DNA from: a virus
Virus record (IMG/VR): IMGVR_UViG_3300027861_000017
Span: 27,136-91,135 of that record
Length of the DNA: 64,000 nt
Strand: one strand, 5' to 3'
Shown here: positions 27,061 to 57,921 of the stretch, piece after piece
How positions within the stretch are numbered: position 1 is the first letter of the stretch
Layout: the number at the start of each line of letters is the position of its first letter
Notes under the pieces: model-generated
Seen by the model: only the letters and a program-made list of their open reading frames with translations
What the model was told of the DNA's origin: nothing
Database searches by the model: none
Translations under genes and position numbers: made by a program

Positions 27061-27192
27061 TTATTCCTCCCTTTCGTCATCTATTATTTCTAAATCCCAT
27101 TGTGGTATATTTACATTATACTCTTCTTTATCTTTATGGCAATACACTATAATTTCTCCAGTATATGCATTGAATATTACAATATGACCCAT
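27061..27192 (-). CDS. Small hypothetical protein (43 aa)
   Basis: MGHIVIFNAYTGEIIVYCHK, then NIPQWDLEIIDDEREE; two beta strands and an acidic end. SD GGAGGAG 13 bases upstream, spacing is long. Confidence 0.5.
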   Translation of the reverse strand: MGHIVIFNAYTGEIIVYCHKDKEEYNVNIPQWDLEIIDDEREE

Positions 27193-38130: not shown

Positions 38131-38135
38131 GTAAG

Positions 38136-38208
38136 TTATGATTGATGGAATTGAACCATCAACACCATGTTCTCAAAACATGTGCTCTACCTATTGAGCT
38201 AAATCATG
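38136..38208 (-). tRNA. tRNA with UGA anticodon, short variable loop
   Basis: Complete cloverleaf: acceptor CATGATT/AATCATA with a C1:A72 mismatch, D arm GCTC/GAGC, anticodon stem CATGT/ACATG with loop TTTGAGA (anticodon TGA, codon UCA), 5-base variable region, T arm GATGG TTCAATT CCATC, A73; no encoded CCA. By anticodon it would be Ser, but a Ser tRNA normally has a long variable arm, so the charged amino acid is uncertain. Confidence 0.8.
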
Positions 38209-38232
38209 TGTTGATTATACGATATGTTAAAT

Positions 38233-38341
38233 ATTAAACTGAATAATGCAGATGTCGTACCACTAGACCACTAAGCCATATGTGTTTATTGGAGGCTTAG
38301 GAAGGATTCGGACCTTCGTCTTCCGCAATTAGTAATTTAAT
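38233..38341 (-). tRNA. Circularly permuted tRNA gene (3' half precedes 5' half)
   Basis: In transcript order: anticodon 3' stem GCGGA, variable AGAC, T arm GAAGG TCCGAAT CCTTC, CTAAGCC, T73 and CCA (38326-38290); a 12-base spacer; then GGCTTAG, TG, D arm with AGTGGTA loop, A26 and TCTGC (38277-38248). GGCTTAG pairs perfectly with CTAAGCC, TCTGC with GCGGA. Sequences outside both halves also pair (TAAT/ATTA, then ATTAAATT/AGTTTAAT), extending the anticodon stem. The anticodon itself cannot be fixed since the join is unknown. U73 and four-base variable loop fit Gly or Cys type. Confidence 0.65.
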
Positions 38342-38478
38342 CGCACAATCAAAATTTAAACTAAAACTGTTGGTGTAATAAACTAAAGCTTAATCTTGAA
38401 TCTTATTGTGTTCATATTGCCATTTACCCTAAATGGTAGACAATACATAACACATTGACTATGAAACTGCACCAAACT
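38342..38478 (-). other. Non-coding stretch, structured
   Basis: No gene seen. Holds the hairpin CCATTTA-GGG-TAAATGG near 38430 and a possible long-range stem TTGGTG/CACCAA closing about 100 bases. Probably leader RNA of the tRNA region. Confidence 0.4.
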
Positions 38479-39231
38479 TTATTCAGAGAATAGATATCCA
38501 AATATATCTCTACCCACTTCTTTCCTAGTAACCTCTACAGAGTTTGCCTTCTGTCTAGCCTTCTTACATCCCATTATCATGTCGTTTAATCTCTGGATCA
38601 ATTTACGCTTCCCATTAGGACTCATACTTGAAAACCATTCCACTTTAGTATATGCGCCTACGTTTTCCTGCTCTGACCACTTCTCTATCTGCGCTGGATG
38701 TTCTTTTGTGGCATCGTATAGGACTTTATGTTTAATCCTGTTTGCTGTCTTAAATGTCCTTTCTGGATCTCTTGTTTTAAAGATATTGTCTGCGACATCC
38801 TCATCTAAAACGTAATCACGTCCAGGTGGTAATGTTGGTATAGTGTCAAGTGCGTTCTTTAGCACCTTCAATCTACTTTCCATCCCAAGAAGAAAGGTTG
38901 CTGGTAGATCTTTAGATATAGTTTCCCCATTTACAATAAGATCTGCTTTTGCCATCTGATTTGTGGACTCCTTGGCCAACATAACATCGAAATACCTAGA
39001 AGAATGATCCGACACACTCTTAAGTATTTCATCTACAACATATGTTACCTGCTGTGTTTCTGGTGGATAATGTGTACCATCATCACCATCAAACATCTCC
39101 AATTCTCTTTTGAAGCCATGAAAGAATGCTGGAGTACTGAATTTAGTCTTAGCATCATGCATAGCATCCTTTGCTCTAGCCTCAAGATCCCCCTCTACTG
39201 CTAGAATTTCATGAAGTTTTGTTTCACCCAT
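38479..39231 (-). CDS. Phage protein of unknown function (250 aa)
   Basis: MGETKLHEILAVEGDLEARA, FFHGFKRELEMFDGDDGTHY, LPATFLLGMESRLKVLKNAL, LPPGRDYVLDEDVADNIFKT, ending VGRDIFGYLFSE. I recognise the pattern from phage and prophage genomes as a conserved protein without function. Sits between the two tRNA-like regions. Confidence 0.75.
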   Translation of the reverse strand: MGETKLHEILAVEGDLEARAKDAMHDAKTKFSTPAFFHGFKRELEMFDGDDGTHYPPETQQVTYVVDEILKSVSDHSSRYFDVMLAKESTNQMAKADLIVNGETISKDLPATFLLGMESRLKVLKNALDTIPTLPPGRDYVLDEDVADNIFKTRDPERTFKTANRIKHKVLYDATKEHPAQIEKWSEQENVGAYTKVEWFSSMSPNGKRKLIQRLNDMIMGCKKARQKANSVEVTRKEVGRDIFGYLFSE

Positions 39232-41088: not shown

Positions 41089-41102
41089 TATTACTCCTTT
41101 TA

Positions 41103-41178
41103 AAAATTTGGGCTATGGCATATTAGCTGATCAAGGGAGTTGAGATATGCACTCTTTGGAACTCCCGCTACATAGCCT
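41103..41178 (-). promoter_or_regulatory. Nested stem-loop with U-run before 40597-41088
   Basis: GGCTATG/CATAGCC outer helix, TAGC/GCTA, then GGGAGTT/AACTCCC; five U residues follow. Could be a terminator or attenuator for the RNA cluster, or a leader of the next gene. The SD GGAG follows right after. Confidence 0.5.
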
Positions 41179-41180
41179 CG

Positions 41181-41234
41181 GACTATAAATCGGAATCGAA
41201 CCGACAAAACTAGTATCACCAATTGCTATAGTCC
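41181..41234 (-). ncRNA. T-arm-like hairpin in a 9-bp helix (minimal tRNA or group I P7-P8 look)
   Basis: GGACTATAG pairs with TTATAGTCC around GTCGG TTCGATT CCGAT, a perfect T arm with the TTCGA loop, but only 19 bases stand where D and anticodon arms should be. Either a tRNA that lost its anticodon arm, or the P7/P8 part of a group I intron core, whose S strand often reads ATATAGTCC. Confidence 0.35.
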
Positions 41235-41353
41235 TTTCACAATAAGCTCTAGTAACCACTCTTACTTCTCTCCACTTACAAGCTTCAATTTAAATGGCCA
41301 TCAGCTTCGGGCCTAGAAAGTTAAGATATTTCACTAGGTTATTGTAAACTGTA
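41235..41353 (-). other. Non-coding stretch between RNA elements
   Basis: No gene seen. Contains short stems (CCTAG/CTAGG, GGCC/GGCC) but no assignable RNA. Confidence 0.4.
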
Positions 41354-41544
41354 AGATGAGGTTGGATTTGCACCAACGTACCCACCAATGTGACCAGCAC
41401 TGGTTTGATCTTGGGTCTCAGGCATTACCACAATTATCTAGAATTTCATGATAATGGTTCTTGACTCCACATCCCTGCATGTGTCATTAACGCTTATGAT
41501 GTGTCGAATGTCGTCCTGGGCATTGCTACTTTGCTACGTCATCT
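41354..41544 (-). ncRNA. tRNA-Thr(GGU)-like 3' half with distant 5' half
   Basis: CAGTG CTGGTCA CATTG forms an anticodon arm with GGT, followed by an 8-base variable region, T arm GTTGG TGCAAAT CCAAC and CTCATCT. AGATGA at 41544 pairs with TCATCT, and TAGCAAAGTAGC after it is D-arm-like, but about 120 bases lie between. Could be a tRNA with an intron ahead of the anticodon stem, or decayed. Confidence 0.35.
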
Positions 41545-41551
41545 ATATAAT

Positions 41552-52329: not shown

Positions 52330-53352
52330 TTAATGTGCCATCCTATCATATTCCCTTAATTCAGAATGGACACTCAGGTGTTCGGTTACTAGCGTCTTAA
52401 CCGCTTCTCTTCGTTTATTAGACCATTTGAAGTGCCTAGCTATACGCTCCACCATATCCCCACCAAGATAGTCGTGATAATAAAAATGAGAATAACCCTT
52501 TTTCTCAAATGCAACAAACGGCTTGGCTATATCGTGCAATAAAGCAGCCCACCTCATATTAATATCCAGAGGAGTGGCATCTACTGTTAACTTAGTATGT
52601 GTCCATAGGTCATATTGGTGATGTTCGTTATTTTGATCATAACCATCTTGGATGGACAGTTCAGGTAGTATAAATTTAAACAATCCAGTATCCATTAGGA
52701 TATCTAATCCAGCAATAGGGTTATTCGACATTAATATCTTATCTAACTCCTGCATCCAGCGTTCTTTGGATATATGTAGGATTTTATAGGCGCACTTTTT
52801 AATATACCCATAAAGGTATTGGTCAACCTCAAACCCTAATTGCGAGCCAAATCTGGCACACCTGAGCATCCTTAAGGAGTCTTCCTTGATCCTCTTCTTG
52901 GGTTCACCAACAGCTTTAATGTTACCAGTCATAATATCTATTCTACCGTGATGTGGATCTATAAATCTACCATCTCTATACGCTATAGCATTCATAGTAA
53001 AATCACGTCTAGATAGATCTGCCGTTATATCCTGTACAAACTCAACTTCCGGTTTTCTGTTATTGTGAGAATAGGTCTCGGTTCTAAAGGTGGTAATCTC
53101 TACATCATGTCCAAACACTTTACAACCTAAAGTACCAAACCTTTTCCCTATATCGTAAGCCTTCCTGTTGTCGCCATGCTCATTTTTAGATTGCCTAATG
53201 AGGCTTTCTATTTCGTTTGGAGTGTGTGGGCAGCAGAAATCATAATCCTTAGGTTCCCTGTCCAGTAATATATCTCTTACAGAACCACCAACAAGATAAA
53301 CTGGGGATAATATGCTTTTAACTTCTTTATATATCTCCTCGTATTCCTTCAC
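52330..53352 (-). CDS. CCA-adding-type tRNA nucleotidyltransferase (340 aa)
   Basis: VYLVGGSVRDILLDREPKDY DF (GGSVRD and DxD of class II), DLSRRDFTMNAIAYRDGRFI, EDSLRMLRCARFGSQLGF, then an HD-like part MRWAALLHDIAKPFVAFEKK and EHLSVHSELR. Adds or repairs CCA. Fits the phage's tRNAs that lack encoded CCA. GTG start overlaps the stop of the upstream gene (GTGA), SD AAGGAGG. Confidence 0.93.
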   Translation of the reverse strand: MKEYEEIYKEVKSILSPVYLVGGSVRDILLDREPKDYDFCCPHTPNEIESLIRQSKNEHGDNRKAYDIGKRFGTLGCKVFGHDVEITTFRTETYSHNNRKPEVEFVQDITADLSRRDFTMNAIAYRDGRFIDPHHGRIDIMTGNIKAVGEPKKRIKEDSLRMLRCARFGSQLGFEVDQYLYGYIKKCAYKILHISKERWMQELDKILMSNNPIAGLDILMDTGLFKFILPELSIQDGYDQNNEHHQYDLWTHTKLTVDATPLDINMRWAALLHDIAKPFVAFEKKGYSHFYYHDYLGGDMVERIARHFKWSNKRREAVKTLVTEHLSVHSELREYDRMAH

Positions 53353-54014
53353 AGATTCATCCTCCTTATCTTAATCAGCACATCGTTTATTCTTTTGTAA
53401 TCTGGCTCATCTGGTAACGAGGTTTTAATCTCCTTAAACTCCTCATATGTAGTTGAGAATAATCTCATCATATCATTGATTTCCATGTCGCTAATATTAA
53501 ACAATATTTCTAGGTCTTCTACTTTGACATTTAATACACTATTCTCTAACAATTCCCTACCTTGTTGTAATAATCTAAAACAATGCCTAGCGTGTTGTTT
53601 GTGTCTAGTGTGTGTCTCGCCTATTTCATGTTTATTATATAACTCTTTAGCCTCATTTAGTGCATATTTCCCATATGAAAGATATATACTAGTGTGTAAA
53701 AAAGAGTCCCTAATATCAATAAGCATTTGACCTTCTCTTGTCAATGCAGTGTATTCATTTAAATACATAAGTTCTAATATTGTTGGATTACATTTAAGTG
53801 CCAATGTGAAATATTTCTCTACCTCGTGATATTTAATATCGTGAGAGTTTAAATTAGGGTTTGTCTTAAATATTGTCTTTTCACCTTTGTGTAAAGATAG
53901 AGTTTTAACAGTAGGATGAAGAAATATCCCCATCATGTCAGTATCGCTTTCTGGAGTGTCAATCCCGTAGGCCTTAGATCCTACTACTCCCTCTAAAATA
54001 ATCTTTTCATCCAT
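53349..54014 (-). CDS. Nucleotidyltransferase of the RlaP/YcgL type (221 aa)
   Basis: ILEGVVGSKAYGIDTPESDT DMMGIF carries the GS...SDxD motif; PTILELMYLNEYTAL and RHKQHARHCFRLLQQGRELL follow as in RlaP, a nucleotidyltransferase linked with RNA-ligase repair operons. Overlap with the CCA enzyme suggests an RNA-repair pair. Confidence 0.8.
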   Translation of the reverse strand: MDEKIILEGVVGSKAYGIDTPESDTDMMGIFLHPTVKTLSLHKGEKTIFKTNPNLNSHDIKYHEVEKYFTLALKCNPTILELMYLNEYTALTREGQMLIDIRDSFLHTSIYLSYGKYALNEAKELYNKHEIGETHTRHKQHARHCFRLLQQGRELLENSVLNVKVEDLEILFNISDMEINDMMRLFSTTYEEFKEIKTSLPDEPDYKRINDVLIKIRRMNL

Positions 54015-54246
54015 TATATTTATACCTCGTATTAGCAATCATGTATATTAAATTATAACCATCTCCAGGACATAACCTTAAAAACTGGATCATATAATCA
54101 CCTACACAGGTTTTATGTACTAGCGTAGCTAACATATTTTCACCATCTTCACTTCCATCTATCGGCAAAAGGAAACATTCCCCATTTTCGTTAGTGCCGC
54201 AAATCGGACAAATATCCCCTTCTGGGAACTTTTCAAAATAATCCAT
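54007..54246 (-). CDS. Cys-containing protein (79 aa)
   Basis: GDICPICGTNENGECFLLPI and HKTCVGDYMIQFLRL: four Cys/His for zinc, of a type seen in phages. Start ATG 54246 preferred to GTG two codons earlier. Confidence 0.65.
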   Translation of the reverse strand: MDYFEKFPEGDICPICGTNENGECFLLPIDGSEDGENMLATLVHKTCVGDYMIQFLRLCPGDGYNLIYMIANTRYKYNG

Positions 54247-57489: not shown

Positions 57490-57921
57490 TCACCTTCCCT
57501 TAAATGCTCTATCATACAATACTACATTAACCGTAGCAGCGAGATTCATGCATCTCTCTGTAGGTATATATATCACATCCCTGCAAAATGATAAAGTCTT
57601 TTCTCCTAAAGTGGAATCCTCTGGCCCAAATATATAAAAAGCTCTTTCAGGATGCACATAATCATATAACGGAACAGCTCCTTCTATAATATCTACAGCT
57701 ACCGGTACACAATCGTAAGGTATAACACTTCTTAGATCATCTACCTGGAGGAGAGGACAGTGCCTATACTGTTTCATAGTGTCAGTTGATACCTTCTTAT
57801 ACCTTCCGCCACTTATGGCCAGCATAGCGGCCTTGTAGACCCCCACAGCACGTAATGCAGATCCTATGTTGGAATTATATTTAGGATGGTTAAGCCCTAT
57901 GCAAGCGTATCCCTTACTCAC
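57490..57921 (-). CDS. SpoU/TrmH-family RNA methylase (143 aa)
   Basis: NIGSALRAVGVYKAAML (motif 1 N.G...R), FYIFGPEDSTLGEKTL (motif 2) and VIYIPTERCMNLAATVNVVL YD (motif 3): SPOUT fold with a trefoil knot. Acts on 2'-O-ribose in tRNA or rRNA. Short, without extra RNA-binding domain. Target might be a phage tRNA. Confidence 0.88.
   Translation of the reverse strand: MSKGYACIGLNHPKYNSNIGSALRAVGVYKAAMLAISGGRYKKVSTDTMKQYRHCPLLQVDDLRSVIPYDCVPVAVDIIEGAVPLYDYVHPERAFYIFGPEDSTLGEKTLSFCRDVIYIPTERCMNLAATVNVVLYDRAFKGR

Follow-up and report, generated by a model that had tools for sequence, protein, structure and literature searches.

The DNA analyzed here (64,000 nucleotides [nt], positions 27,136 to 91,135 of the 91-kb IMG/VR phage record IMGVR_UViG_3300027861_000017, hereafter the window) carries near position 38,300 the two halves of a tRNA in reversed order, which raises the question of whether this phage encodes a circularly permuted tRNA gene or an RNA of another kind. 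A sequence-only reading had settled on a permuted tRNA that would need cutting and ligation in its anticodon loop. We find that the permuted order is real and conserved in relatives but that a tRNA is not the best reading of it. Instead, the element is probably a Y-RNA-like tRNA mimic, a small noncoding RNA that would form a ribonucleoprotein with the protein encoded next to it, a member of the family DUF7873 (PF25283).

Both the element and all larger genes of the record are encoded on the minus strand; the sequence-only reading had been silent on strand. Read 5' to 3', a leader (38327..38352) is followed by the 3' half, GCGGA-AGAC-GAAGGTCCGAATCCTTC-CTAAGCC-T-CCA (38290..38326), an acceptor-loop spacer of 12 nt that ends in UAU, ATAAACACATAT (38278..38289), the 5' half, GGCTTAG-TG-GTCTAGTGGTACGAC-A-TCTGC (38248..38277), and a trailer (38211..38247). 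Encoded first, the 3' half comprises the 3' strand of an anticodon-like stem (GCGGA, 38322-38326), the variable bases AGAC, a T arm (GAAGG, loop TCCGAAT, and CCTTC, 38301-38317), the 3' acceptor strand CTAAGCC (38294-38300), U73, and CCA (38290-38292). The 5' half comprises the 5' acceptor strand GGCTTAG (38271-38277), U8, a D arm, and the 5' strand of the anticodon-like stem, TCTGC (38248-38252). The order and 12-nt spacing of the halves were therefore as first described, no ordinary partner half lies nearby, and pairing of the halves confirmed an acceptor stem of 7/7 Watson-Crick pairs and an anticodon-like stem of 5/5 pairs that includes one G:U; the T stem pairs at 5/5 and the D stem has 3 bp. 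U8, G18G19, and the T loop are canonical, the C at the usual U55 being the sole clear deviation from the tRNA consensus. When the halves were rejoined, ARAGORN called a tRNA whichever 7-nt loop was inserted; on the native order, neither ARAGORN nor Rfam called one.

Pairing between leader and trailer, also part of the sequence-only reading, was recovered as well. An unconstrained fold of the precursor RNA, over just the interval that the sequence-only reading had marked (38233-38341), gave the permuted cloverleaf plus an 8-bp helix between AUUAAAUU in the leader (38334-38341) and 38233-38240 in the trailer, with an energy only moderately better than that of shuffled sequences (z about -1.6). 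An alternative basal pairing of 13 bp joins 38340-38352 to 38211-38223. A scan of the whole window for T arms of 5 (or 4) bp that have a 7/7 Watson-Crick acceptor partner at tRNA-like spacing returned only the ARAGORN tRNAs and the element, and the acceptor partner lay downstream of the T arm in the element alone. A first covariance model, constructed from 22 phage tRNAs that had been permuted artificially, scored the element at 48.3 bits (E 1.4e-11). With the same model, places where one ordinary tRNA directly follows another in a tRNA-rich phage scored up to 49 bits, but acceptor or anticodon pairs were broken there. Group I permuted intron-exon elements and self-cleaving ribozymes were considered and rejected, with no Rfam match in the region and less than 40 nt of trailer before the next tRNA. 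A tRNA-Ser(UGA) called by ARAGORN occupies 38135-38208; its body is class I and is nearest to phage tRNA-Phe (84-87.5% over 56 nt), i.e., Phe-like with a serine anticodon.

Is the same arrangement found elsewhere? Searches with the element or its phage returned little: by TerL, no IMG/VR relative of the phage exceeded 48% identity, in a search whose output may omit near records; an exact-pattern search for the 5' half found nothing; blastn with the 74-nt rejoined tRNA found nothing in phages; and one exact-pattern match in IMG/VR was due to chance, the tRNA arms being absent. The neighboring gene provided a better handle. The DUF7873 gene (38479..39231, minus strand; E 3.3e-70) lies upstream of the element, at a distance of 152 nt. 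Scanning IMG/VR with a DUF7873 alignment yielded 80 loci, and three named phages brought the set to 83 loci besides the window, each of which was searched by a script for a T arm, a downstream acceptor partner, a D arm, and an anticodon stem. In 73 of the 83, the script located a permuted tRNA-like RNA no more than about 600 nt downstream of the gene. Among the ten that the script missed, eight had a relaxed or more distant candidate, one was recovered with a covariance model (L092, 65 bits), and the contig of the last stops 125 nt past DUF7873. In every case the RNA was downstream of DUF7873 and in the same orientation, with a gap of 100-580 nt. The 75 kb downstream of the DUF7873 genes contained 68 strict matches, compared to 1 in the other 2.25 Mb of these contigs, tRNA arrays among them, and only 1 of 1,660 dinucleotide-shuffled windows gave a strict match.

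Together with the window, the family has 65 distinct cores with 57 different acceptor strands. Named carriers include Rhizobium phages RHph_TM21B and TM16, Vibrio phage D505, Gordonia phages Ziko and Phendrix, Arthrobacter phage Talia1610, and Klebsiella phage FBKp24. Two RNAs follow DUF7873 in tandem in the Gordonia, Arthrobacter, and Klebsiella phages and in Streptomyces and Nonomuraea plasmids. In the Nonomuraea/Streptomyces replicons these RNA pairs occupy L179 3834-4051, L180 3932-4150, and L181 3805-4022, and their acceptor loops are short. In Klebsiella phage vB_KpM_FBKp24, a deposited tRNA-Sup-TTA (L195 2512-2591) is probably an artifact of the second permuted RNA (2554-2648), with which it overlaps. 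A second covariance model, built from 27 relatives with basal flanks included and the window left out, returned the window element as the top match of its search (68.8 bits, E 3.6e-17), setting the extent of the whole RNA at 38218..38350 on the minus strand. The window RNA clearly belongs to this family: it lies within the same distance downstream of DUF7873, has the permuted tRNA-like core, and carries the basal motif described below.

Covariation of the acceptor and anticodon-like stems of the family is strong. Across 44 distinct sequences aligned with MAFFT without structure, the acceptor, T, and D stems were 99.0% paired, with a covariation score of 0.86 compared to 0.21 for shuffled alignments and ≤0.135 when the pairing was slid; all seven acceptor pairs changed on both sides. 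For the anticodon-like stem, the 25 members whose variable loop has 4 nt showed 93.6% pairing and a covariation score of 1.27 (0.26 shuffled). The scanner that chose the members demands pairing, which qualifies these values; the position next to DUF7873 and the strict-match controls are independent of that choice. Since the permuted order and the leader-trailer pairing are conserved in many phages, the element is neither a chance arrangement nor a rearranged relic. A relic would have arisen from tandem duplicated tRNA genes whose outer halves were lost, and other damaged tRNA-like pieces do exist in this genome: one at 41180-41245 has a 7-bp acceptor stem, a D-like region, and a T arm without an anticodon arm, and, like it, an orphan T arm at 41361-41377 lies inside a long noncoding stretch (41089-41550). 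Nevertheless, place, covarying stems, and motif are conserved in dozens of divergent phages, and a conventional tRNA at the corresponding place, sought in relatives, was not found; conservation thus rules out an origin by duplication and deletion, and we give a relic next to no weight.

If the RNA were a tRNA, its flanks should yield an anticodon loop. No joint of the window flanks gives a normal loop with U33 and a usable anticodon: the possible joints would yield, for example, AUUAUUU or AUUAAUU, in which the anticodon is UAU or UAA and position 37 is U. Nor does a bulge-helix-bulge occur at the junction in the predicted window fold, where the internal loop is 6x6 and lacks the 3-4-3 pattern. 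Among 63 relatives with distinct basal parts, position 33 was U in 29, near the expectation from the A+T-rich context, so that no decoding loop is kept. What is conserved lies elsewhere. The relatives' internal loop is asymmetric, typically with about 5 to 12 nt on the leader side and about 11 to 16 nt on the trailer side, and the trailer side, after the stem, carries the motif UNARNNNNA in 50 of the 63 (19 when shuffled); in the window it reads UCAGUUUAA (38242-38234). The basal helix scored 6.3, compared to 3.9 for leaders and trailers mismatched between loci. The apparently broken anticodon loop is best described as a basal stem holding a conserved internal-loop motif. The cutting and ligation proposed for the anticodon loop are accordingly not the best reading, the same order being found unspliced in the bacterial Y RNA YrlA, and the window element most probably does not function as a tRNA.

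YrlA is a tRNA-mimicking Y RNA with two binding regions, a basal stem for Rsr/Ro60 and a tRNA-like domain for PNPase (PMC8394870); our statements about it rest on the Rfam model RF02553, PMC8394870, PMC7790460, and PMC12282133. The Rfam YrlA model matched at the right place in five of six DUF7873 loci scanned (33 to 49 bits), best in L051 (48.7 bits, E 5.7e-8) and more weakly in L053, L048, L045, and L093. A TROVE/Ro60 gene was present in 4 of 26 DUF7873 phage records, roughly ≤8 kb from DUF7873 by coordinates. In two of these phages, permuted RNAs of the same shape stand just upstream of TROVE/Ro60 (L189 136-214 in an uncultured phage; L190 122-193 and 277-351 in Rhizobium phage RHph_TM21B); they scored 48-50 bits on the DUF7873-RNA model, and most carry NCCA. 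Because these Ro60-adjacent RNAs share the shape, phages have one kind of RNA next to two different protein genes, Ro60 and DUF7873. The tandem RNAs after DUF7873 also recall the several Y RNAs that can accompany Ro60. The DUF7873-RNA pair would work in a similar way to Ro60 and its Y RNAs, and the two pairs may be related.

At its C terminus the partner protein carries a conserved basic helix, KKARQRAN, that could serve in RNA binding. Its structure is predicted with confidence (pLDDT 91.7). Foldseek returned nothing from PDB or BFVD at E ≤ 0.001, its sequence had no match in PDB, PHROG, or PADLOC and no convincing one in NCBIfam, and a literature search returned no paper that names the family. 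We propose that the expressed RNA would pair its 5' and 3' ends into the basal stem, on which the T arm, the acceptor stem closed by an NCCA-containing loop, and the D arm would sit. DUF7873 would bind the basal stem, as Ro60 binds YrlA, while host tRNA-handling enzymes (RNase P, tRNA-modifying enzymes, and PNPase or another nuclease) would recognize the tRNA-like head; the complex could thereby capture or redirect RNA processing or decay during infection.

Several observations weigh against a Y-RNA-like mimic. Every YrlA match fell under the curated cutoff of 69 bits, the window element did not match the Rfam YrlA model, and that model has no CCA at the acceptor end. In the sixth locus the match was a tandem tRNA pair at 31 bits; because such a pair scores so well, the YrlA scores partly reflect mere tRNA-likeness. 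In the structure comparison, DUF7873 showed neither the Ro60/TROVE fold nor any other known fold. Finally, NCCA is kept in 57 of the 65 distinct members, and U(-1) and G1:C72 are common, which fits a true tRNA 3' end that undergoes RNase P/CCA handling.

This last point also favors a genuine family of circularly permuted tRNAs, in which leader and trailer would be cut off, the ends joined at the anticodon by a phage or host RtcB, and the acceptor opened by RNase P and 3' processing. The perfect acceptor pairing and the canonical U8, G18G19, and T loop agree with such a tRNA, and the phage encodes enzymes with a putative role in maturation: a CCA-adding/poly(A) polymerase family enzyme (52330..53352, minus strand), the RNA-repair-pathway nucleotidyltransferase RlaP (53349..54038, minus strand), and, outside the window, an RtcB ligase (G000:C1:23185-24264 [= L004:9686-10765]; E 1.5e-68). 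A SpoU-type methylase (57490-57921) is part of the same RNA-repair/tRNA-handling set. However, neither U33 nor an anticodon is conserved, the window flanks offer only U/A-rich loops with U37, and the bulge-helix-bulge is absent. Discriminators and acceptors are highly varied, and the acceptor loops of the actinobacterial members are too short for ordinary end processing. RtcB was found in only 8 of the 26 DUF7873 phage records, which are possibly incomplete, and ligation by a phage RtcB as a general rule is therefore unsupported. We consider a permuted tRNA family unlikely.

The acceptor end leaves room for a further product. In the spacer before the 5' half, 51 of 65 distinct members have U at position -3, 63 of 65 have a purine at position -2, and U prevails at position -1; NCCA, U(-3), purine(-2), and G1:C72 suggest that RNase P or CCA-reading enzymes recognize the acceptor end. 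This conservation accommodates a two-piece as well as a truly permuted tRNA. If the RNA were tRNA-like but in two pieces, comparable to two-piece tmRNA, the spacer would be excised by RNase P together with 3' trimming, the fragments would be held together by the stems and the leader-trailer helix, and the CCA would be charged or only recognized. Some members lack CCA, though, and the actinobacterial forms are short-looped. In L009, L010, L017, L052, L057, and L075, the CCA and a UGG farther downstream form an acceptor-loop hairpin by base pairing, which would hide or extend the acceptor end, and hiding of the CCA in this subset speaks against the two-piece RNA, which we regard as improbable. 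There is a small chance that DUF7873 and the RNA form a self-contained phage system that matures permuted tRNAs into real or two-piece tRNAs, with RNase P acting at the acceptor, cleavage and RtcB-type joining at the basal loop, and DUF7873 as a nuclease or chaperone.

The constant position of the RNA downstream of DUF7873, in the same orientation, would also suit a cis-acting element that processes or protects the 3' end of the DUF7873 mRNA, in the manner of a tRNA-like cleavage signal. Several genomes have tandem copies, however, the 100- to 580-nt gap contains an annotated promoter in Klebsiella phage FBKp24, and relatives of the RNA adjoin Ro60 and not DUF7873 alone. A cis-acting role is thus very unlikely.

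A Y-RNA-like mimic would have consequences beyond this phage. Bacterial Y RNAs are known as partners of Ro60, and here closely similar RNAs adjoin the structurally novel DUF7873, making it a testable candidate for a second kind of Y-RNA protein. The pair would be a recurring RNA-based device in phage tRNA clusters, spread over Rhizobium, Vibrio, Gordonia, Arthrobacter, and Klebsiella phages, many uncultured phages, and some actinobacterial plasmids, and the family accounts for genome stretches that had been left blank or labeled as odd tRNAs. If some members are matured as permuted tRNAs after all, they would be the first for bacteria and bacterial viruses. Elsewhere in this genome, a run of genes at 139-852 of the window and L004 2441-9482 appears from its sequence to serve nonulosonic (sialic/legionaminic-type) sugar synthesis and lipopolysaccharide modification, encoding NeuA-, NeuB-, and NeuC-like proteins, an aminotransferase, and epimerases.

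How does the family compare with known systems? The permuted tRNA genes of red and green algae and of Thermofilum (Soma review, PMC3978253; Chan et al., PMC3218864), with CCA encoded in both archaeal cases, keep U33, the anticodon, and a bulge-helix-bulge. They resemble the family in placing the 3' half first, in their short acceptor-loop spacer, and in the pairing of leader with trailer, but they differ in the decoding loop and bulge-helix-bulge, neither of which was found here. Two-piece tmRNA likewise has a permuted gene, a two-stranded tRNA-like domain, and CCA, whereas the element has complete D and T arms, shows no tag reading frame, and is linked to DUF7873. Ro60-RtcB RNA-repair operons (rsr-yrlBA-rtcBA) unite a tRNA mimic, an RNA-binding partner, and RtcB in one genome, as here, although no TROVE/Ro60 gene is present in the record of the window phage, and its RtcB gene is ~41 kb away and missing from most relatives' records. 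The closest likeness is to YrlA (RF02553), normally permuted yet unspliced, in which a permuted T arm, a looped acceptor stem, and a D arm stand between paired 5' and 3' ends, the basal stem contains a conserved internal loop, and one or more copies lie beside a protein gene, in phages as well. The window RNA shares the basal stem and permuted domain and departs from YrlA in its Rfam score and its neighbor: YrlA is partnered by Rsr/Ro60 (TROVE), while the RNAs described here have DUF7873 as the partner gene, their own basal motif, and, in most phage members, NCCA and longer acceptor loops.
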